Source: Daucus carota subsp. sativus | Taxonomy: Eukaryota; Streptophyta; Magnoliopsida; Apiales; Apiaceae | Reading direction: 5' to 3' | Length of the DNA: 64,000 nucleotides | Assembly: GCF_001625215.2 (NCBI RefSeq) | Contig: NC_030382.2 | Span: forward strand, 48,635,364-48,699,363 | Shown here: one piece after another, positions 14,718-61,977 of the stretch | Numbering within the stretch: the first letter of the stretch is position 1 | Layout of the letters: each line of letters begins with the position of its first letter | Notes under the pieces: model-generated | The model's database searches: none | Told to the model about the DNA's origin: nothing | The model's input: the letters and a program-made list of their open reading frames with translations, nothing else | Made by a program: the position numbers and the translations under genes

Positions 14718-16358
14718 TTAACCACTGAGTTTCCAGGCCGAGGTAGTAATGAGCGGTCTACTGTGCCAACCCAACATCAAACATCCTTCATGCTCCTCCA
14801 CCCTGTACCCATCCCCACCTGCAAACAAAGCCAATAACATACTAGCTTGCTTAAACGCATTAGATCCCAAGTGAACCGGTTCAAACCGAGCCAAGTTAAA
14901 CCGGTCTCTCCACTGAGTTAATGGTTCATGTCTCTCAATCCGATCAACTCCTTCACAAGCCACCAAATTGCAAATCTGTCTGCCCAAAAACACCTCGGAC
15001 ATCACCTTATCTTGCGTACTCACGGCTGCACCACCATCAACCCCGCCACCACAGCTCTCCAACGAATCAAAAAGAGTTGAATAATAATGCAACGACTCGG
15101 TAAACCGATCCAAGAAAAGCGGTCCGTTATGACTCGCTTCTTGTTCCCCAACCGTTACAATTTCTGGTTTCATCTGCGCCACAGCAGCCATCACCTTCTC
15201 AATCGCACCAGGCCTAGCCAAAAGCTGATGCAACTCAAACATCGAATTCACTGCCACTGTCTCACCTTCCCTTAAATCAAGCATAGAAGCATCAAGATCC
15301 GCCAAGCTATTAGCCACAAACCCCCTGTACTCAAACTTAACCTGAATAGTTTCGGCGAATTGAGCCAATTTCCACCCCACTTCTTGCAAATGATCCGTAT
15401 TATCCTGCGAAGGAGGCCCAATTCCAGTCAACCTAAAAGTCGGCGGTCCACCAGGCCGCAAAGCCAAAGCTTGCATCAAAGCAGGCCATTGCATACCCTG
15501 TTTCATACTAAAATCAATAACATGAACCATCTTCTTATCCGCAAACGCCTCAAGTATAGCCTGATTAGCCGTAAAATGAGCAAACTTCAAATACGGACAA
15601 GTCTCGTAAAAATGCATCTCAAGCATCTCACTAAACCCCGAATCCTTCTGAGTTTGCGGATACAATCTGTATATCCGCCTAGCCAAGGCCTCAGCAAAAT
15701 AAGTAGCCACTTTCCTCATCGCCCCTATCTGCGAAACAGCCAACACTCCAATCTGTTTCACAAGAACCTCCGCTAACTTAAAATTACTCTCCTGCACAGC
15801 TTCGGCACACGCCATCAAACTATGCACTAATCTCACACCATTCTCTTGCGAATCAACCAAAACCTGAACAGCCTGATTCTGAGTTTCGCTCGGGCTCTGA
15901 CTCACCGGAGCCTCCCAACTCGGCTCCGTCTTCAATCTTTTATTTGAATTTGACAAAACAGCGTCCCCTGGGATGGCCTTAAGATCATAATCAGAATCAT
16001 CGAAAATAATCTTACTCGAAGATGACTGAGCAAACATGTCATCGGGCTGATTGGGATTAAATTCACCGATCATTGAATTAAGCCAGGAATTCAAATCAGA
16101 TGGATTATAATGAACCGTATCAGACCCAAGCTGCGAAATCTCCTGTTGTTGGGCCTGGCCCATAGCTGTTTCAAGATGCTGCAGCTTCTCAGCAATATCA
16201 GCCATATCAGATGATTTCACCTTGTACCCAAGAACTGCAAGCAGCTCATCGACCCCGGCGTCTTGTTCGGCGTCGTTCCATTTCATTTTTGATTTTCCCG
16301 GTGAGTAAATATCGCCGGTCATGGACGAGCTAGCGCCGGCGCTGTGGTCTCGTTTCAT
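14718..16358 (-). CDS. DELLA protein (GRAS family), GAI/RGA type
   Basis: Intronless, 546 residues, close to Arabidopsis GAI (533). DELLA proteins are nuclear repressors of growth; gibberellin-bound GID1 docks on the N-terminal motifs and SCF-SLY1 then drives their degradation. Visible motifs in order: [14 protein letters not shown] at 37-50, the LExLE-like stretch LQHLETAM (59-66), TVHYNPSDL at 81-89, leucine-rich repeat I from [14 protein letters not shown] (176), VHVID at 278-282, a PFYRE region around 370-430 and the SAW end at 540-546 (SAWKLSG). Both GID1-contact motifs are intact, so normal gibberellin responsiveness is expected. The Ser/Thr/Val-rich linker (~105-170) is short. RRIYRLYP at 227-234 is conserved. 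A CT-rich leader with a TATA-like box lies upstream. Orthology to a single GAI or RGA copy cannot be assigned from this window. Confidence 0.97.
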
Positions 16359-21880: not shown

Positions 21881-22472
21881 CAAGTAATTTGAATGCTAAA
21901 ACTTGTAACAGTGGTAATGTGGTATGCTGGTTCTATGGTTAGCCCGCCAAGAAACTGAACTTTCTGTTATCCTCCCTTCCATGACATGAGGTTGATTTAA
22001 ATACCGATTTTATATTGGAAAAGCTCCAAATTTAGCATAGATTTTTTGCAAGTCTGTAGGATCTGGGAACAACCTCTTAAGTCTTCTTGACTCTTGAGGC
22101 ATTTGTTTTTATATGGAGACCAAAACAACTTAAGCACAATCGAGGGAATTCAATATTCACAGGGGCACTTGAACAAACAATTGGCGGATCAGTAATCAAT
22201 ACATGATTTTATTAATATTAAGAACATGCAAAGGAGGAACAGTTTCATGTATAAGCAAAGAAGACTCACCTTTTGCGTCGAAAGTGTTTATGTTTTGTTG
22301 GTTCTTTGATTGTTTAATGACAGCAAACGAGGATGAAATCAACAACCTGGAACTTTCTATTTTCTAACGTTCGAATAGAATTCTATATTATTAAAAAATA
22401 TTATTTTTTTAAAATAGAATTTTTTCTTTGTCAGGATTTTTTTAATATAGAATTTGAATAGTAAAAGAAGTA
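21881..22472. other. Intergenic, left flank of the MULE
   Basis: No gene seen. The last nine bases (22464-22472, AAAGAAGTA) are the left copy of the MULE target duplication. Confidence 0.5.
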
Positions 22473-25221
22473 GGGTCCTGTTAACCACAGCCCTTAGGGC
22501 TATGGATAATAATTAACTACACATATTTTATTTATTATCATTTATCATTTCCAAGAACATCCAAGAGGTAGATGTGTTATTTTCATAACTCCAGAAATTA
22601 TGATAGTTGACTTTCTTTCACAAATTGATTTCTGGAACAAGAATAACATTATAAATAAAATGCATTTCAACATCAATATCCTTGATCATTTTCATTAGTA
22701 AATCAGAATAAATCAAGAACAAACTTTAGCAAAAATTACATATAATAGGTTTCATCCATCCATGACTTAGTATCACCTAGTACTTAATAGTAAATATGGG
22801 ATTCAATCCTAAATCACCTGCTGATCTTTTGTTTCTTTGGGAGGACATGTTTGAAGTGGTAGCATTATTTTCTTTATTTGGACATGTAGGCTTGGTGTGA
22901 CCGGGTGTATTACATTGAGAGCACGTCTTACTTTTCTTTTTTGCTGCCTCTTTTCCACCTTTGATGCGTCTCTTTTTCGGACGACCTTTTGTTGCTGATC
23001 TCGGAGGACACAACACATCTACAGCATCCAGATCAGCCTCAGCTTCAAGTTGCATAGAAGTCTCTCCTGTCAATACCTCTTCTGATTTTTCACTATCTAT
23101 TAGTGTAGACTCTGAACACCAACGTTTAGGTAGATAAAAAGCTGGGATCTTGAAACAGTTTGTGTGTAAAAATACTCGAAAGATATGTCGACACAATATC
23201 CCCCAAAACTCAAAGTTCTTGCAACTACATAATGCAGTATTACCATCCCAAAATACTTGATGATTTTTGCAATGAAATCCTTCATGGTATCTTACCGTAA
23301 ACTTGTGACCTTCAACTTGAAATAAGAAGTATTGATTTACCCTTTTCAACTCTTCTTGTAACTTCTTAAAAGCAAATGGTGTAAGCACTTGAAAAGCTTG
23401 TTCCTCTAATGGCGACTTTGTTAGTAAAGAAGTGGGTTTTAATGATTCCGCCGATATATTACGCGATTGCACTTGAGTTATCTCCTCGACAGCAAGTTCA
23501 ACCTATAAAAACATAGATGATTATATTGGCACTCTTAAAAAAGTAAATAAACATAGGTTATTGTAAGTAATACCTGTTTAACAAAGCTGCTCAAATCTGT
23601 GTGAGATGAAACAAATCTTTTAATAAAGGCATTTATACTCTCGCATCTTCCTGTAGTCGTCATCCCTCCAAAAAAAAAGTCACGGAGATAACAAGGCGCC
23701 CAAAATCTTTTAATTTTATACAGGCCCTGAACATGTTTATTGTTTTGCATTTTATACTTTGTGACTACTAGAGGCCAATTTTGCTCAAATTCTTCAACAC
23801 TTTCAATTTTATAGAGTTCATAAAAATCAGCACACCACTTTTGATACTCATTTTTTAGTAAAGCTGTGAACCAGCTGCTGAACTTTGAAGTGATATGCCA
23901 AATACAAAAACTATGTTTTGTAGTTGGCATTTCAATTGCAATCGCCTTAGACATCCAAGGATCCTGATCAGTGACAATGGTGTTTGGCGCTTTTTTCATT
24001 GTAGTTACGAAAGTCTGATAAAAATAGAAGAATGACAAAATTATTAACAAGACTTCATTAAAAAGTGAACAAAGCAAAAGAAAATAACAAGTAAAAGAAT
24101 TACGACACGCACCTTCATCAGCCATCTAAAAGTTTGTGTCGTTTCATTTCGGAGCAGTGCACTTCCAAATAAAATCGATTTCCCATGGTTGTCAATGCCA
24201 ACAAAAAATGCACAAGGCATGTCATATGCATTTACCTTATATGTTGTATCAAACACAACTACATCCCCGTACATTTTATACCACTCGAAACTTTGAGCAT
24301 GGCACCAGAACACATTTTCGAGTCTCCTCCCATCATCCATAGTATATATGTATTGAAATTTTTCATCCTTTTGTTTTGCACATTTCAGAGCTTCGATAAA
24401 CCTTTGAGCATCACTGACTTCAACTAATTTTTTCACTTTGACAAATAAATTGCGAACATCTCTTTCGATAAAAGAGAGATCCCCGTGTTTTACCTCCTTC
24501 TGAAGCTCCATAACTCGAATTATCTGTATAACACTAAGTCCGGCTTCTTTATATAATAAAATCTGACTTTCATCTTCTGTGGTGATGACTCGATTTATAG
24601 GAAGCAAGCGCATGCTAGTAGGTGATAATAGGTTGTGATTGTGCTCTTTGATGAATTTTGTGACGTGCCATTCTTCTGGAAAAATATCATTACTCTGTTT
24701 TAATGTAAGACGCATATGGGCTTTGCACTCACATTTAGAAGACTCTCTGTTTCTCTGAACCTTAGAAGGATGAATAGGCTTTAAAGGTTTCTTTCCTCCA
24801 CGGTGACAATACAAATCACGTCTAATGGCCTTTCCATGCCTTGTAGCTGATCGATCTTTGCGAACCGTAAAACCATTTGCCTCAGCGTAATTTTTGTAGA
24901 AGATGTGTGCCTCTTCTATGCTTTGAAAAGTTTGACCAATGAATGGTTCTTCATATTTTTCTTCAGCTAAAGGGATGTTTAAGTCAAGATTAAACATTGA
25001 GAATATCTGGAAAAGCAAGTGCTTCTGATAGGAAAACTCTGTGTACTGATATACATGCATAGATAGTGGAGAGAAAGAGGGACTTTTAATATTCCGAGAA
25101 GTAAAACGCGGGAGTATAAAAATGTGTATTTCATTTTGACGCCTCTCATTATTAATTGACTAAAAAGGTTTGAACATTAAATTTTTATCAAAAGCCCTTA
25201 AGGCTATCGTTAACATTTGCC
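22473..25221 (-). mobile_element. Complete-looking Mutator-like element (MULE), 2749 bp
   Basis: A perfect 9-bp direct repeat AAAGAAGTA flanks the element (22464-22472 and 25222-25230), the diagnostic target-site size of Mutator transposons. Its ends are inverted: left GGGTCCTGTTAACC continuing into AGCCCTTAGGGCT, right (inverted) GGCAAATGTTAACG continuing into AGCCTTAAGGGCT. About 30 of the first 42 positions match. The only gene inside is the minus-strand FAR1/FRS-type transposase, with ~300 bp after its stop and ~225 bp before its start. No second mudrB-like gene is present, as in Jittery-type MULEs. The undamaged target duplication and open reading frames suggest a fairly young insertion, though the TIRs differ from each other. 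Confidence 0.9.
22777..24997 (-). CDS. FAR1/FRS-type MULE transposase
   Basis: Three exons, 24997-24113, 24014-23574 and 23502-22777, join in phase across GT-AG introns to 683 residues without a stop. Domains in order: FAR1 DNA-binding (WRKY-GCM1) zinc domain ~25-122, with C64, C89, C91 and the HNH end at 119-121; MULE transposase with catalytic-position acidic residues D250 (VVVFDTTYK), D311 (IVTDQDPWMSKAI) and E420 (TTTGRCESINAFIKRF); SWIM zinc finger C534-x-C536...C546-x-H548; and a CCHC knuckle C636, C639, H644, C649 after a basic stretch (GRPKKRRIKGGK). FAR1/FHY3/FRS transcription factors descend from such transposases. Because this gene sits between MULE TIRs with a fresh target duplication, I call it the transposase, not a domesticated FRS gene. 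An ATG 63 bp upstream (25060) is in frame; 24997 was preferred because MFNLDLN resembles family N-termini. Confidence 0.9.
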
Positions 25222-25435
25222 AAAGAAGTATTGAAAAAGAAAAACTCTAGTCCCGTGGCAGTTTCGTAAATTGATGCACGACAAAGGTCAAATATGTAAG
25301 AGTGAACTGCGCTAGAGTATATCATTCCCGTTCTCTCCGATCCAAACCTCCTCTCACTTTTTATTACTCCGCGGCGATCTCGGATTGTTTCATCGTCTCT
25401 TTATCACCGTCGTTTCTCTCTTTAATTGTACACAC
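25222..25435 (+). promoter_or_regulatory. Residual proximal promoter and leader of TMEM214-like gene
   Basis: Only 214 bp lie between the MULE end (with its target duplicate at 25222-25230) and the start codon. The pyrimidine-rich stretch near 25325-25425 (CTCTCCGATCC, CTCTCTTTAATTG) is a probable 5' leader. The transposon therefore displaced whatever lay farther upstream. Confidence 0.5.
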
Positions 25436-28400
25436 ATGACGATGGAGGATAAGCTCAGTTCATTCGATTCAAGCCACATTGATGAAGCCGAAGCTACCAA
25501 CAATCACGGCTGGCAGAAGGTCACCTACGCGAAAAAACAGCGGAAACAGCCGGCGAAAAAACCGGATTCCGGAAATATCGTCTCCAACGGATCGGCCTTT
25601 CACGGCGGCGACAGCGTGTTCACGTCGCTGGAGAAGCAATCGGAGGAGCGGCGCCGGAGAATTGAGGCGCAGAAGGCGGCGATTGATTATGATGATGCGC
25701 CGGTTAGATCGTCCAAGCACCGATCGGATGATGATGATGACGAAAGTGATGGTGATGTAGGTAAAGGTGTGCAGAATGGAGTTGCGGTGGCGGAGAAGAA
25801 ACCGAAGGTGAAGAAACAGAAGAAACCGAAAGTCACGATTGCGGAAGCTGCTGCGAAGATTGATGCTGATGATCTCGCTGCATTCCTCGCTGATATATCC
25901 GTGAGTTATTTCTATGAATTAATAGGTTAATTGTCTCGATTTAATGATACATCTGGAGTATAATGAATGCTACGTGTTGTGTATTTTGATCAATTAAATT
26001 AAGAGATGTCTATAGGAGCTTCGATGTGTTTATGCAATGAACACTTGAAGGTGTTGATTTTTTATTGAGTGCTGGTTATTTTGTGACTGCAGGCATCCTA
26101 TGAATCTCAGCAGGATATTCAGCTGATGCGGTTTGCGGATTATTTTGGTAGGGCATTTTCGGCTGTGACTGCATCTCAGTTTCCGTGGACTAAGTTGTTC
26201 AGGGAGTCCGCTATTGGGAAAATAGCAGACGTGAGTTGTTTTTTTTATTTCAATTGTGAATCTTTAAACAGTCCGTATTTCCTCTTTTCATTTAATTACT
26301 CATGTTGGCACTCATTAACTTTGACCTTGGTGGTAGAATATTTAGTTGATTCTTTTAGACTTTAGTGCTAAATGTTTATTTGTGAATATCTGTAGCGATT
26401 CGTTTTTATTGAGACTCTTGTTTTACTTATCTTATCTAGTCCCTGTTATTGATGTGTCGAATTAAAATTGTCTGGTTGTTGGGATCATATCTACCATTAA
26501 GTGTCCACTTTTTGATGCGTATTAGAACGTGTATATATACATTTACGATATATATGTATAAAATTCACAGCATTTATGTTGGTAACGTTCTTTGACGCTG
26601 TTAATACAAATGCAAATGTATCGTAATTGGTGTTAGAATCATACATTAAAATGTTCCGTAATTATTACATATTCTATAATGGATATCATAAATACATTAC
26701 ATATTCTACAACGGATATTCCTTTTTATCTGAACTATCAATAAACGACATGTATTTGGTAGTTGTTAAAAGTATATGACTATATCTCTGATATTAAAAGT
26801 AACTTATTACATGCATCATTATAGATACCCCTTGTAAATACAAGTACAAACACTTGTCTACGCAGAATATATGATATAGTAAAAAGTTTGAAAATAGATA
26901 CAAGTATAAAGGATTTTTGTTTCATTCTCTTGTTTTTGTTTCATGTGTGGTATTATCTGTACTTAGATTACACTCTGCGGACTATATAATTTGTGTGTTT
27001 TAGATTAGGATCTTACTTGTACTCCATTTAGTTTTCTTTGCTAGATAGGAGCATAATTTTATGATATTATTTTACAGATTCCAGTCTCCAACCTATCAGA
27101 AACTGTTTACAAGACATCAGTTGATTGGATCAATCAGAGATCCACTGAGGCTCTAGGTTCCTTTGTATTGTGGTCTCTAGATAGCATATTTGGAGACTTA
27201 GCCAGCCAACAACCTAGTGGTAAGGGTGCAAAGAAAGCCGTGCAACAAACAACTTCTAAATCTCAGGTAAGCTTTATGTATTTTGTTTTAAAAAGTGGAA
27301 GTAGGAAAAAGAGAAGAAGAAGAAAGCTGTTGTAGTACTTAAATACTAGACATATATTACTTAGTTCCTTATGCTACACCAAAAGTAGACAAGGTGGCCT
27401 CTGGTGTCCTTAAATGGATTGTTTTCTGTTTCTTTAATGATTAAGGGATTTATCCACCACCCTTTTCTATTGCACATCAGCTCAATGAAGTGCCCTTCTC
27501 GAAAGCGTTTATACAATGAAATTCATATACTTACTTCTAAGACAATTCATTTGGTTGCATAGTTGTTTTTCTGTTAATGTGAAGAATGTGATGTCCTAAT
27601 ATATGAAGTAATGTGCATGGGCAGGTTGCAATTTTCTTAGTGCTAGCAATGGTATTGAGAAGAAAACCTGATGCCTTCATTAGTATATTGCCGGTTTTGA
27701 ACGAGAACACAAAGTACAAAGGACAAGATAAGCTTCCTGTAATAGTGTGGATGGTAGTTCAGGTGAGCTGGTAATAGTAAATATATTTTGTGAAACCATT
27801 GGGTTTCTTGGAGGGAGCAGATGACGCTTTATGTTCTGTATACATGCTAAACATAATTTTGTATCTTATCCAGGCTTGTCAAGGAGATCTTGCTATAGGG
27901 TTGTACTTATGGTCGCGTATTGTCTTGCCTATAGTTGGTGGGAAACAAGGCTCAAATCCTCAGACGAGGGACTTGGTTTTACAGTTGGTGGAAAGGTATG
28001 TATATATTGTGATACTTTCTTGTTCAAATGCAAGTCTGTAACTCATGTTCTATGGCATAATATATTCCTACTTTCAAATATTTCAGAATTTTGGCTGCTC
28101 CTAAAGCTCGTACTATTTTAGTAAATGGGGCTGTAAGAAAAGGGGAGCGCTTGATGCCACCTTCAGCACTTGATTTGCTGTTGCGTGTAAACTTTCCAAC
28201 ATCATCAGCTAGGGTCAAGGTGTGTGGAACTCTTAATCATACAAGATTGAAAAAAATGCATTGGATGCATATTTTTCTGTTGTTGCATCATTACTGTTTT
28301 AACCTGTTTTCTATTACACAGGCAACTGAGAGGTTTGAGGCCATATACCCCATCCTTAAAGAGGTAGCTCTTGCTGGAGTACCTGGAAGCAAGGGAATGA

Positions 28401-49160: not shown

Positions 49161-49732
49161 AGGGCTGGCAATTTTGGGTTTCGGGTCGGGTTGACAGTCG
49201 CGGGTCAAAAAATTTACCCGATCCGAAATTTTAATGGGTCAGAATACCCAACCCGAATCCGACCCGCATTACCCGCGGGTAACCCGAACCCGACCAGAAA
49301 AATAATATTTACTAATAAATATATTTTTTTAATAATAAATAAATAATATTTTAATTCAAATAAATTAATTTATATTAAATTAAATAATTTTTTTATTGAA
49401 TTTAACTAATAAATATTACAAAAATAATATAAATATATGTATTTTATATAAACATATATAATATTTATACTATATATCAACTTTCGGGTAATTTCGGGTA
49501 ACCCGAATTCAACCCGAAAATGACCCGATTTTTTCGGGTTGATTTTGGGTCAACCCGAATTCGACCCAAACCCGAAAAACTCCAACCCGAATTCGTATTT
49601 TTACGGGTCGAATTCGTGTCGGGTTAATCAACCCGAATTCGACCCAAACCCGAAAAACTCCAACCCGAATTCGTATTTTTACGGATCGAATTCGTGTCGG
49701 GTTGTTGGGTCGGGTCCAATATCGCCACACCA
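49161..49732. mobile_element. Older non-autonomous hAT element, 572 bp
   Basis: Ends AGGGCTGGCAATTTTGG and inverted TGGTGTGGCGATATTGG are imperfect hAT-type termini. The flanking 8-mers GGCATACG (49153-49160) and GGCGTACC (49733-49740) match at six of eight positions, as expected of a decayed target duplication. Subterminal arrays are GGGT(C/T)GGGT / AACCCGA motifs, a different array from the 10930 element. The right part holds a 78-bp tandem duplication. No transposase. Confidence 0.72.
49555..49712. repeat. 78-bp tandem duplication in hAT subterminal array
   Basis: Two near-identical 78-bp units, each containing AACCCGAATTCGACCCAAAC and GTATTTTTACGG. Because 78 is a multiple of three, it shows up as a false 26-residue protein repeat in a minus-strand frame. 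Confidence 0.85.
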
Positions 49733-53462: not shown

Positions 53463-55131
53463 TCACAGCCCAGATGTGAAGGGCACTCCAGTAGCTGCAA
53501 GCCATGATTCATCATCCAAGAAACTCCCAACTGAAAATCTTGCAGCCTCTTCGACATTGGTTATGATATGATACCCGGGCCATTTCACCCTCCCCGCGGT
53601 ACCTGCACCACTTCCCCTGTTCATATATTCGCCATAATACAACGTCTTTAGACCAAATTCCCCGTTCCATGGGAGCCAACCAGACGGGTCAATTAAATCC
53701 TCTAGATAACTTTTTATAACAACTGTTCTTGAATATGCCTTCCATGGTCTTCCAAGATAAGTCTTGTATATACCCTGGACCACTCTCAGATCCGAGGATG
53801 CTGTGATCCAACAATTATGCAACACAATGCCCGTGTTTTCATAAATATTTGTCCTCTGTTGCGCGGTTATGGTGTTCACCTGTCTGCTCATCGGCCTCCT
53901 CACATAAATATTACAATTTTGCAGGACTGCAATAGCATTGCCGAATATAAAGTCTACAGTCCCGTAGATGTCACAGTTGCGGTAGAATTGGCGGTTAGAA
54001 TGGACGTAGAGAGTGTCTTGATAGCCTTTAAAGCTGCAATTGTAAAAAACCGATAAATCTGAGCTAGACCGCATGGCAACAGCTTGGTGTTTTTGGGGTC
54101 CGGCCGTGTTTTCGAAAGTCATGCCCCGAACAATCAGTCCATGTCCTCTAGCAGCTGCGTTACATTTACAACACTTCGTCAATATGAGTATATATAAATT
54201 ATTTTTATCTAGTGATGAGAAAATATGTGTACGCACCAAAAGTTGCTGAACGAAAGGTTGTGAAGCCATCTGCATTATTCTTATTGCCAGTAATAATTGT
54301 AGCGTCAATTCCATCACCAACAAGCATCAAATTCTTGACTTTTTTCTTGATCTCGACGTTCTCTTTGTACACTCCTTTTTTCACGTATATAACAAACCTC
54401 TTAGTCGTACCGGTTTTTACTGCAGCAACAGCCTCGGATATGGTAGTGAAATCACCGGACCCGTCTTGCGCTACAACCAGATCAGCTAAAGGTGGTTTCG
54501 TCTGAAGAAGCCTGCGATTGGTTGCTGATATCCACTCGGGCAGATCATGGTCCAATAAGCCCCGCCCTTTTGATTTTTCACTAGCTAGACCTGAAGTTTG
54601 GGAAGCCAACACGGCTTTATTTATGGCAAGAGAGTTACTAAGAGATTTTGAGAAATTGTTGGAGGGGAAGTATTTTAAATAAGTACTGTATAGATTGAAT
54701 TCGGCAAAGCCATTTTGACAGGTTTCGAGGTTCGTGAGGGCTGCACTTAACCAAGTCTGGACATTAATATTGTGCCTCTTGCTGTTAGTTAAGGACATGG
54801 AAGAGTCTAGTTGGTGAATGCTGTCTTCGTAAAGCTCCACACAATCAGGCCAAGCAGACTTGGCTCGGTCTGCGAAAGAGCTGGTGTCCATTGAAGATAT
54901 GAGATGGTGGACTTGCAGGGCCTCAGCCATTGTGGCTGAAAGGGCCGAATCACGGTGCACAACGAAAGGGGTGGTTTCTTGGTTGGTTTTGTTTGAGATT
55001 ATGAGGGAATGACAGAGACTGGGAAAGGGTGTTTGGCTACATAGTGATGTTTTGGCACCATGCACAGCCACAGCCATGGAAGGAACATACACGATGAAAA
55101 GAAAAGTTGATACAAGAAGAGTATGATCCAT
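53463..55131 (-). CDS. Pectin methylesterase with inhibitor prodomain
   Basis: Two exons, 55131-54237 and 54154-53463, GT-AG, joining in phase to 528 residues. The enzyme removes methyl esters from cell-wall homogalacturonan, changing wall stiffness and calcium binding. Parts in order: secretory signal (~1-25, [20 protein letters not shown]), PMEI-like prodomain with C31, C40, C97 and C138, a basic processing motif NRRLL (205-209), and a mature catalytic domain of ~319 residues. Catalytic residues are all visible: Q322, Q344, D345 (GYQDTLY), D366 ([10 protein letters not shown]), R434 and W436 (LGRPW). The protein is type I/group 2 in layout and should be secreted to the wall after Golgi processing. 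A TATA box lies 76 bp upstream. A PME inhibitor gene on the same strand follows ~5 kb farther upstream. Confidence 0.95.
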
Positions 55132-60036: not shown

Positions 60037-60666
60037 TCATGGGTTGGTTACCTTGGAAACATAACTATTAACCAACGCCAACGCATTACTCGTCACTTGC
60101 GTCACTTTCACCGTCCGATCACACACGTCCTTCTTCATCGGACCGTCGCTCACTTCCTCGAATCCGTCCGTACACGTGTCCTCATTCGTTAACGCCGCGC
60201 TCATGTACGTCTGCACATTGCTCATCTGAAACCTGAGCGACTCGCCGGAGCCGTTCATCACGAGCATCTGCCTGAGCGAGTCTCGTATTTGTTCGACGGC
60301 GTCGCCGAAGACGGAGAAGCAGTCGTGGAGGGCGGAGACGGCGCGGGGCTCGTTGGCGCCGGTGTCGGCCTCCTGGGTTAGGTTGGAGACGTAGTTGGCC
60401 ATGCGCTTGGCGCGGTTGAGGCTCACGCCTATGGCGGCGCGTGCGAGGAGAGCGGGGTCTTCTTGGATTTTCAGGGCGTGGCGGGAGAGTGACCTGTAGC
60501 AGAGCTCGGGGTAGAGAGTTGTTTGGCAGTTTGTGCGGATGAATTCGGAGTTGTTGGCTGGGGAGACGCTCGGGGCGGCGTCGGGCGGAGTTTCAGCGGA
60601 GATATGGTGGAAGTTTAGTAGTATTGAGAGTAAGGACAGAATGGCAAGTGATAGTTGGGTGTCCAT
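60037..60666 (-). CDS. Pectin methylesterase inhibitor (PMEI) family protein
   Basis: Intronless, 209 residues. Members bind plant pectin methylesterases 1:1 in the wall (some instead inhibit invertases). A signal peptide covers ~1-25 (LSLAILSLLSILLNFHHISA). The family disulphide cysteines are present: C47 and C56 (NCQTTLYPELC), and C116 and C165 (LHDC, EDTC), plus C182. The helical core follows AIGVSLNRAKRMANYVSNL, with the AALTNEDTC signature. The frame is open 33 codons upstream, but MDTQLSLAIL is chosen because it starts the signal peptide. Codons are strikingly GC-rich compared with the flanks. It lies ~4.9 kb upstream of the same-strand PME gene; PME and PMEI neighbours are also seen in Arabidopsis (At1g23200/At1g23205). 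Invertase versus PME specificity cannot be read from sequence alone. Confidence 0.93.
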   Translation of the reverse strand: MDTQLSLAILSLLSILLNFHHISAETPPDAAPSVSPANNSEFIRTNCQTTLYPELCYRSLSRHALKIQEDPALLARAAIGVSLNRAKRMANYVSNLTQEADTGANEPRAVSALHDCFSVFGDAVEQIRDSLRQMLVMNGSGESLRFQMSNVQTYMSAALTNEDTCTDGFEEVSDGPMKKDVCDRTVKVTQVTSNALALVNSYVSKVTNP

Positions 60667-60749
60667 TCTTATGTGCAGAAATGGATGAGAATGAGAGAAA
60701 GTTTGGTTGAGTTTAGTTTTGCAGGGGAGAATTTTAGTTGAGGAAAGGG

Positions 60750-60757
60750 TTTTTATA
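60750..60757 (-). promoter_or_regulatory. TATA box of the PMEI gene
   Basis: TATAAAAA on the minus strand, ~84 bp before the start codon. Confidence 0.6.
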
Positions 60758-61977
60758 GGCAGCATGCAACCAAGGACGACTAGGATTTGTTTAACTCTAA
60801 ATTTTGAACTCTCGGCTGGGAAAAATATTTCAGGATTTTTTTTTATTTAGTCTTGTGCTATCAATTATTTTTTATTTAAATAAGAAAATTTAACTAATAA
60901 ACACTTTTGTTTATGCATAAATGATGATTATTTATGAAATTGAAATCAATAAAAATTTGTCCAACTAACTAAATTATGATTAAAAAAAATCTGAATATTC
61001 TAACAATTATGAATACTTATATATTAGTACTATAGGTATACTATAATAATTCGAAACTGAGTCAAATTTTATTTCAACTTTAAAATATAATATATCGTGA
61101 AATCGTGTATATTACGTGGATAATTGTTTCTAGGAACTTCTATTCTAAGCCACCGGATAATTTTAGAAAAATAAATCAAAAGTTCTTATTATAGAACTTA
61201 ATTGTTTGAGGTAGATTAATCAATTTTAACACATTTTTTATTTTAAATTACAAAATTACTCAAGCAAGCTAGCCTAGCTAGCTCTCAAAGTGTTAATTTT
61301 ATTGGAAAATGCTAAGATGTTACATAGATATTAGATAGTAATAAAGAAGATACGCCTCTTGTGATGATTGTTAATCATAATTTGATTGTTTTTTCTTAAT
61401 ATTAGACTGCATTAATCAGGGCCAAGGACTCCATTTTTTTAGTTTATACTTGTACCAAGATAATTGATTAGTCAAGGAGCATATCAAATCTTTATGATAC
61501 AATCCTGATTATGAGCTTTACGTGCTACTTTGGAGCTTTTTATCTAAACATTGCATTATTGATCATCAAGTGTTAATTATTAACTTAAATTATTACAAAA
61601 TAAAATGTTAAATTAAATACATGGTTAAAAAAGCTAACTATTTCTCCAATTAAATATTAAGTCAATAATAAAATGTTTTACAATTAGTTACATACATATA
61701 ACATGAATTTGGATTATGAGTGGTATATTAATTACCAAATTATATTTATAATCATAAACCAAAATATTATACAAATGATAAACTTTTAAAAATAACTTTC
61801 TCAATATATATAATCATACTATATCATTCAGTCATACATCTCCTATTCTATTACGCGATAAGTTTTAATTCTTTCCCATAACAAAAAAGCTCTCTCAACG
61901 TAAAACGAGAGCTAACTCAACAAAAAGATAAATTAAGTAATAAACAGTGTGTGTGTCAACCATGACAGAAAGATCTC
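60758..61977. other. Intergenic, AT-rich, no gene seen
   Basis: Upstream sequence of the PMEI gene with no recognisable gene or complete mobile element. Confidence 0.55.

Follow-up and report, generated by a model that had tools for sequence, protein, structure and literature searches.

Genome annotations routinely list FAR1-type genes as transcription factors, and one such gene in carrot (Daucus carota subsp. sativus) raises the question of whether it belongs to the host or to a mobile element whose ends are still in place. The gene lies in the window analysed here, a stretch of 64,000 nucleotides at C2:48635364-48699363. We consider it highly probable that a complete FAR1-type Mutator-like element (MULE) of a low-copy family, itself probably autonomous, occupies this locus, and a second insertion with the same ends shows the gene to be inside a transposon. 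The three copies found, one of them intact, represent a new low-copy family of FAR1-type MULE of a known kind, a conclusion that is well supported.

The element and its transposase gene

The element proper occupies window positions 22473-25221 and, at 2749 bp with a single minus-strand gene, is the compact one-gene element of 2.75 kb that had been proposed (Table 1). Its inverted ends are identical at 14/20, 21/30, 29/40 and 34/50 positions. The predicted gene model comprises three exons and encodes 683 amino acids. A Pfam search of this protein returned FAR1 (1.8e-19), MULE (PF10551; 2.1e-26), SWIM (4.4e-6) and ZSWIM RNase H-like (1.4e-11) domains, with Transposase_mut (PF00872; 0.00024) slightly below its cut-off. 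The original prediction had assigned to the 683-residue frame a FAR1 domain, a SWIM finger, three acidic residues and a CCHC knuckle; the first three are upheld as such, while the knuckle was detected by pattern and the protein has no Pfam zf-CCHC match.

The acidic residues, in their contexts, are D250 (FDTTY), D311 (TDQD) and E420 (ESINAF). We take these to be the catalytic positions of the MULE DDE transposase, in agreement with two sister genes elsewhere in the genome, L012 and L013, which carry D, D and E at the same positions. The window copy retains an open transposase frame with all three presumed catalytic residues. A start at 24997 (683 aa) may be likelier than one at the in-frame ATG at 25060 (704 aa), on the weak grounds that a 5-bp indel separates the window copy from a dead copy on C9 between the two ATGs and that L012 starts with a similar MIDLN. 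The protein had no match in a PDB sequence search at E up to 1, viral contigs gave no match, and Rfam gave nothing at its gathering score.

Table 1. Features of the window element and of related elements in the host genome
Feature	Position	Strand	Remarks
Left target-site duplication (TSD), AAAGAAGTA	22464..22472	.	Exact match to 25222-25230
Right TSD, AAAGAAGTA	25222..25230	.	Exact match to 22464-22472
Left TIR, ~50 bp	22473..22522	+	34/50 identical to right end
Imperfect palindrome CCACAGCCCTTAGGGCTATGG	22485-22505		In left TIR
Right TIR	25172..25221	-	Upstream of transposase gene
Exon 1	24113..24997	-	Start codon, FAR1 DNA-binding domain, first MULE half, D250
Intron 1, 98 bp, GT-AG	24015..24112	-	Position common to spliced sister genes L012, L013
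Exon 2	23574..24014	-	Second MULE half, D311, CIWH, E420
Intron 2, 71 bp, GT-AG	23503..23573	-	Position common to spliced sister genes L012, L013
Exon 3	22777..23502	-	SWIM zinc finger, basic stretch, CCHC pattern, stop
L012 and L013	C6 and C3		Sister family, ~4.2 kb, 97.8% alike
L014	C2		Inverted repeats 442 bp at 91%; 10-bp TSD, one base off repeat end
L051	C5		Inverted repeats ~720 bp at 91%; may not be element tips
L052	C1		Inverted repeats ~300 bp at 91%; may not be element tips

The family inserted at two separate places

A search of the host genome (441,086,747 bases in 11 contigs) with the element returned 11 match rows. Besides the window itself there were three close rows at two places, on C9 and C5; the other seven rows had 64-71% identity over portions of the gene. 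The C9 copy (C9:4345272-4347959) is 93-94% identical in two rows and covers element bases 1-2749 minus a 73-bp deletion. Homology starts at the base corresponding to 22473, the first of the left TIR, and stops at the other tip, with TTTAAAAAAA in both flanks as a perfect duplication of 10 bp (9 or 10, as it lies in an A run). The flanks of the C9 copy are unrelated to those of the window copy and the element boundaries are the same. Two separate insertions with identical boundaries and different target duplications demonstrate transposition of this family.

By its sequence the C9 copy is clearly dead, with stops at codons 101, 166, 315 and 674, its 73-bp deletion in exon 1, D311Y, and four frameshifting indels of 1 or 2 bp distributed over exons 2 and 3. 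The C5 copy consists of the left 573 bp at 90% identity and ends inside exon 3; an 8-bp deletion lies within the palindrome of its left end, and the 3.8 kb examined contains no second copy of its 9-bp outer flank. When the ends were used as queries, the left end was found at at least three places and the right end at at least two, each of them the window, C9 or C5 copy. A search with both ends for further copies and duplications, as had been suggested, was answered by the C9 copy with its own duplication and by the C5 left end. The joined flanks matched this assembly only at the window locus, as two halves, with no empty site seen, and open-licence full text queried with GGGTCCTGTTAAC and shorter strings contained no earlier description of the element ends.

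The traits of the MULE superfamily are found in these copies: a duplication of 8-11 bp (9 bp in the window copy, as above in the C9 copy); TIRs, which many MULEs have and some lack, and which are short and imperfect here; ends common to more than one insertion; and a MULE DDE transposase domain, recognised from PF10551 and the triad. In the mechanism that we propose, the transposase would bind the element ends via its FAR1 domain, perhaps at the terminal palindrome, would pair the ends and would then excise the element with its DDE RNase H-like core. The excised element would be joined to a new A/T-rich site, where a stagger of 9-10 bp would give rise to the duplication.

At the window locus the element would have landed upstream of a host-like open frame and head-to-head with it, the right TSD ending 205 bp before the ATG at 25436. 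The first 164 codons of this frame have no Pfam match; it is presumably a host gene. With A|AA ... TA|T, the insertion site is in line with the A/T-triplet preference that has been reported for the citrus element CitMule (PMC4334395). Elsewhere in the window, the minus strand contains an open single-frame DELLA/GRAS gene (14718-16358), a pectinesterase with a PMEI domain in two overlapping frames, probably with an intron between them (53463-55131), and a separate PMEI-domain gene (60037-60765). A 78-bp unit is repeated in tandem at 49550-49703, in two copies that match at 98%.

Host selection, end decay and chance as alternative readings

We considered whether the host has co-opted the window copy as a young FAR1/FRS-type regulator that host selection keeps intact while the transposon ends are still visible. 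It is the sole intact copy of the three found, as such a takeover would have it, and the purifying selection on its lineage points the same way. Over 657 of the 683 codons, the window and C9 copies differ with dN 0.040 and dS 0.103 (ratio 0.39), and of 100 changes 62 are nonsynonymous (stops counted), where 80% of the sites are of that class (one-sided p=2.8e-5); judged by these codon changes, the lineage was constrained. Changes were polarised with sister elements, a rough procedure in that the outgroup protein identity is 51% (349/680) and the L013 row is a 377-aa piece. The window branch received 13 synonymous and 13 nonsynonymous changes (departure from neutrality, p=6e-4) and the C9 branch 17 synonymous, 27 nonsynonymous and 1 stop (p=0.005), with 8 synonymous, 18 nonsynonymous and 3 stops assigned to neither. 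Amino-acid differences numbered 6 for the window, 16 for C9 and 39 for neither (6 vs 16, p=0.05). The difference in constraint between the two branches was not significant (Fisher p=0.33), and since they are alike in this respect the signal could largely be older than both insertions.

Comparison of the full-span copies gives 50 differences in 694 non-coding positions (four rows summed), which a manual estimate at a substitution rate of 7e-9 per site per year places at roughly 5 My of separation. At the same rate a neutral frame of 683-aa length would have a half-life of 0.2-0.5 My, depending on the indel rate assumed, which, set against the separation of the copies, favours a takeover. Constraint would be expected just as much, however, if the transposase had remained mobile until a recent landing here, and the catalytic triad is retained. 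Furthermore, domesticated MULE genes generally lack TIRs and TSDs, a lack that itself serves as a criterion in the work describing them (PMC2528002), whereas the window copy has both. We judge a host takeover to be unlikely. A similarly low probability attaches to a domestication that is just starting, in which an intact transposase gene inside its own ends and duplication would be under host selection and might drive its head-to-head neighbour through a promoter common to both, the other full-span copy having decayed.

Returning to a complete and probably autonomous MULE as the preferred reading, the dissimilarity of its two ends requires explanation. The TIRs had been described as imperfect and as unusual in this respect for a young element; the imperfection stands and is explained, the asymmetry being inherited and present in the C9 copy also. 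An identity of just 29/40 would suit a dead, old element whose TIRs decayed after insertion. Left and right ends differ at 11/40 positions within the window copy and at 12/40 within the C9 copy, whereas between the two copies the left ends differ at 1/40 and the right ends at 4/40. Because like ends are near-identical across copies and unlike ends are not, the asymmetry is older than both full-span insertions and was already present in their common ancestor; the mismatched ends reflect inheritance within the family, not decay. In an ungapped comparison the left end of the C5 copy differs from the other left ends at 18/40 positions, owing to its 8-bp deletion. To reach the present ends from identical TIRs would take ~24 My at the substitution rate used above, and over that time a TSD would stay intact with P ~0.05 and a neutral frame with P 3e-24. 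We reject post-insertion decay on the asymmetry shared with the C9 copy together with this calculation, and accord very little probability to a dead, old element. CitMule, which is Jittery-related and which its authors inferred to have moved in the Arrufatina sport, likewise has degenerate TIRs (17 bp at 100%, 34 bp at 88% and 65 bp at 78%; PMC4334395). Recent activity, put forward earlier as a possibility, is in keeping with the intact frame and the constraint on the lineage. An intact duplication is a separate matter: as the dead C9 copy also has a perfect one, a perfect TSD alone is no clock and no proof of youth.

The last possibility is coincidence. Among all pairs of exact 9-mers in the window lying 118-20,000 bp apart, homopolymers excluded (n=15,875), only the pair flanking the element has inverted inner ends of at least 27/40. 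Across 40 first-order Markov windows, the maximum among 421,894 pairs was 25/40. In a weaker control using local alignment, 1 of 4984 random window 70-mer pairs scored at least as high as the element ends. The 9-mer AAAGAAGTA occurs six times on the plus strand of the window (22464, 25222, 2613, 6774, 19135 and 39868) vs 0.77 expected per strand, and not at all on the minus strand. Owing to this over-representation the repeat by itself is not rare, and it is the combination of TIR and TSD that counts. The reading of an ordinary host FRS gene whose inverted ends and 9-bp repeat are coincidental, which would draw on that over-representation and on the FAR1-MULE-SWIM layout that FRS genes also have (PMC6000157), is refuted by the 0 of 421,894 chance pairs that attain the observed 29/40 and by a C9 copy with the same boundaries amid unrelated flanks, and its probability is close to nil. 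The original prediction, that 22464..25230 is a whole MULE with a FAR1-type transposase and a perfect 9-bp duplication, is thus borne out by the chance test and by a second insertion that has the same boundaries and its own duplication.

Known systems and sister families

The element had also been called Jittery-like, which holds for its architecture with the qualification that plant MULEs of the Hop group can have the same look (PMC6446971). Traits of the Jittery group (group 36) found here are an N-terminal FAR1 domain, a C-terminal SWIM or CCHC, one ORF and a TIR within 39-292 bp; the plant Hop subgroup overlaps the group on these traits, and the TSD of group 36 is tabulated as 8 bp or not indicated (PMC6446971). 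Jittery of maize resembles the window element in the FAR1 domain of its group, the absence of mudrB, three cDNA exons, low copy number and a 9-bp TSD, a likeness by architecture; its TIRs are ~200 bp long and those of the window element ~50 bp and imperfect (PMC9569675, PMC6446971). Compared by description, CitMule shares the FAR1, MULE and SWIM domains and the 9-bp A/T-rich duplications; it is 6.8-6.9 kb long with five exons and four copies (identity above 99%), as against 2.75 kb, three exons and one intact copy here, and by its authors' usage the window element would be classed as non-TIR (PMC4334395).

OsMULE-JSS of rice is also a FAR1/MULE element of ~2.7 kb with a perfect 9-bp duplication and few copies, inserted 0.4 kb upstream of a gene much as the window element is upstream of an open frame, and its absence from other rices has been demonstrated. 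It differs in having 80-bp TIRs more than 95% identical and a longest frame of 1.1 kb, where the window element has an intact 683-aa gene (PMC4178011). In the ys3 allele of maize, an FRS5-like MULE insertion is comparable in that its reference matches are annotated as a FAR1-related gene, but its TIRs of 130 bp and 8-bp duplications are unlike those of the window element (PMC5826256). The domesticated FHY3/FAR1/FRS factors have the same three-domain layout as the window protein; the Arabidopsis members have most likely lost transposase activity, and mobile ends are not among the features described for them in that source (PMC6000157).

Within the carrot genome, genes related to that of the window are flanked at five places (L012, L013, L014, L051 and L052) by inverted repeats of 229-727 bp. 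The repeats of L012 and L013 are 237 bp at 97.0% and 229 bp at 99.6%. An exact TSD was sought and not found at either of these two copies, nor was a TSD found at L051 or L052, and no inverted repeat spanning the gene was found at L015, L053, L054 or L055. In sister genes other than L012 and L013, the protein matches break near the same points as the two introns. In a midpoint-rooted tree of 28 rows (the window and 27 selected loci of this host genome, for which 72 match rows were listed), the window falls into one group with L009, L012-L015 and L051-L053 (support 1.0), with a support of just 0.438 for the exclusion of L053 from the rest. With families in one genome ranging from ~50 imperfect bp to several-hundred-bp inverted repeats, the minimal end symmetry of a MULE can be asked about directly, and the window element is a compact candidate source element.

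Five of the six ends of L012, L013 and L014 contain the palindrome CCTGTGCCCTCAGGGCACAGG or a similar one, with 10 paired bases per arm, the maximum scored, starting 11-15 bases from the listed tip; the left end of L014 scores 5. The window left end scores 8 at base 13, and the C9 ends score 6 (left, base 13) and 5 (right, base 14), while the best score at the window right end is 4, from a different palindrome. Among 3000 random window 60-mers, a score of 10 was reached in 0.3%, at least 8 in 3.1%, at least 6 in 23% and at least 5 in 47%. By this comparison the palindrome is strong in the sisters and fair at the window left end, and the score at the right end is no better than chance. Mosquito Muta1, another MULE, is known to have a palindromic motif at its tips (PMC5225508), and the tip palindrome of several of these elements offers a testable guess at a putative FAR1-domain binding site.

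The end pattern TGTTAACNNNAGCCYTWAGGGCT, with up to two mismatches, was found at 12 places in the host genome (reversed control, 0 and 2). Five of these lie in the window and C9 copies, one being the window left-end palindrome in the opposite reading, and seven lie elsewhere. Inspection of five of the seven outside places (L061-L065) found no direct non-autonomous derivative of the window family. L062 and L065 have no short inverted pair of the kind present at L061 and at L063/L064 (one place), in which the two members are ~290 bp apart and have a GCCCTAAGGGC core. These ~290-bp sequences are possibly a Mutator-type MITE sharing the end design. The inverted pair of the C8 sequence (C8:12751224-12751501, L063/L064) resembles the element ends, as does a similar one at C4:3680737 (L061), and two further places, C9:36279393 and C9:36318388, are similar to the C8 sequence by end pattern only.
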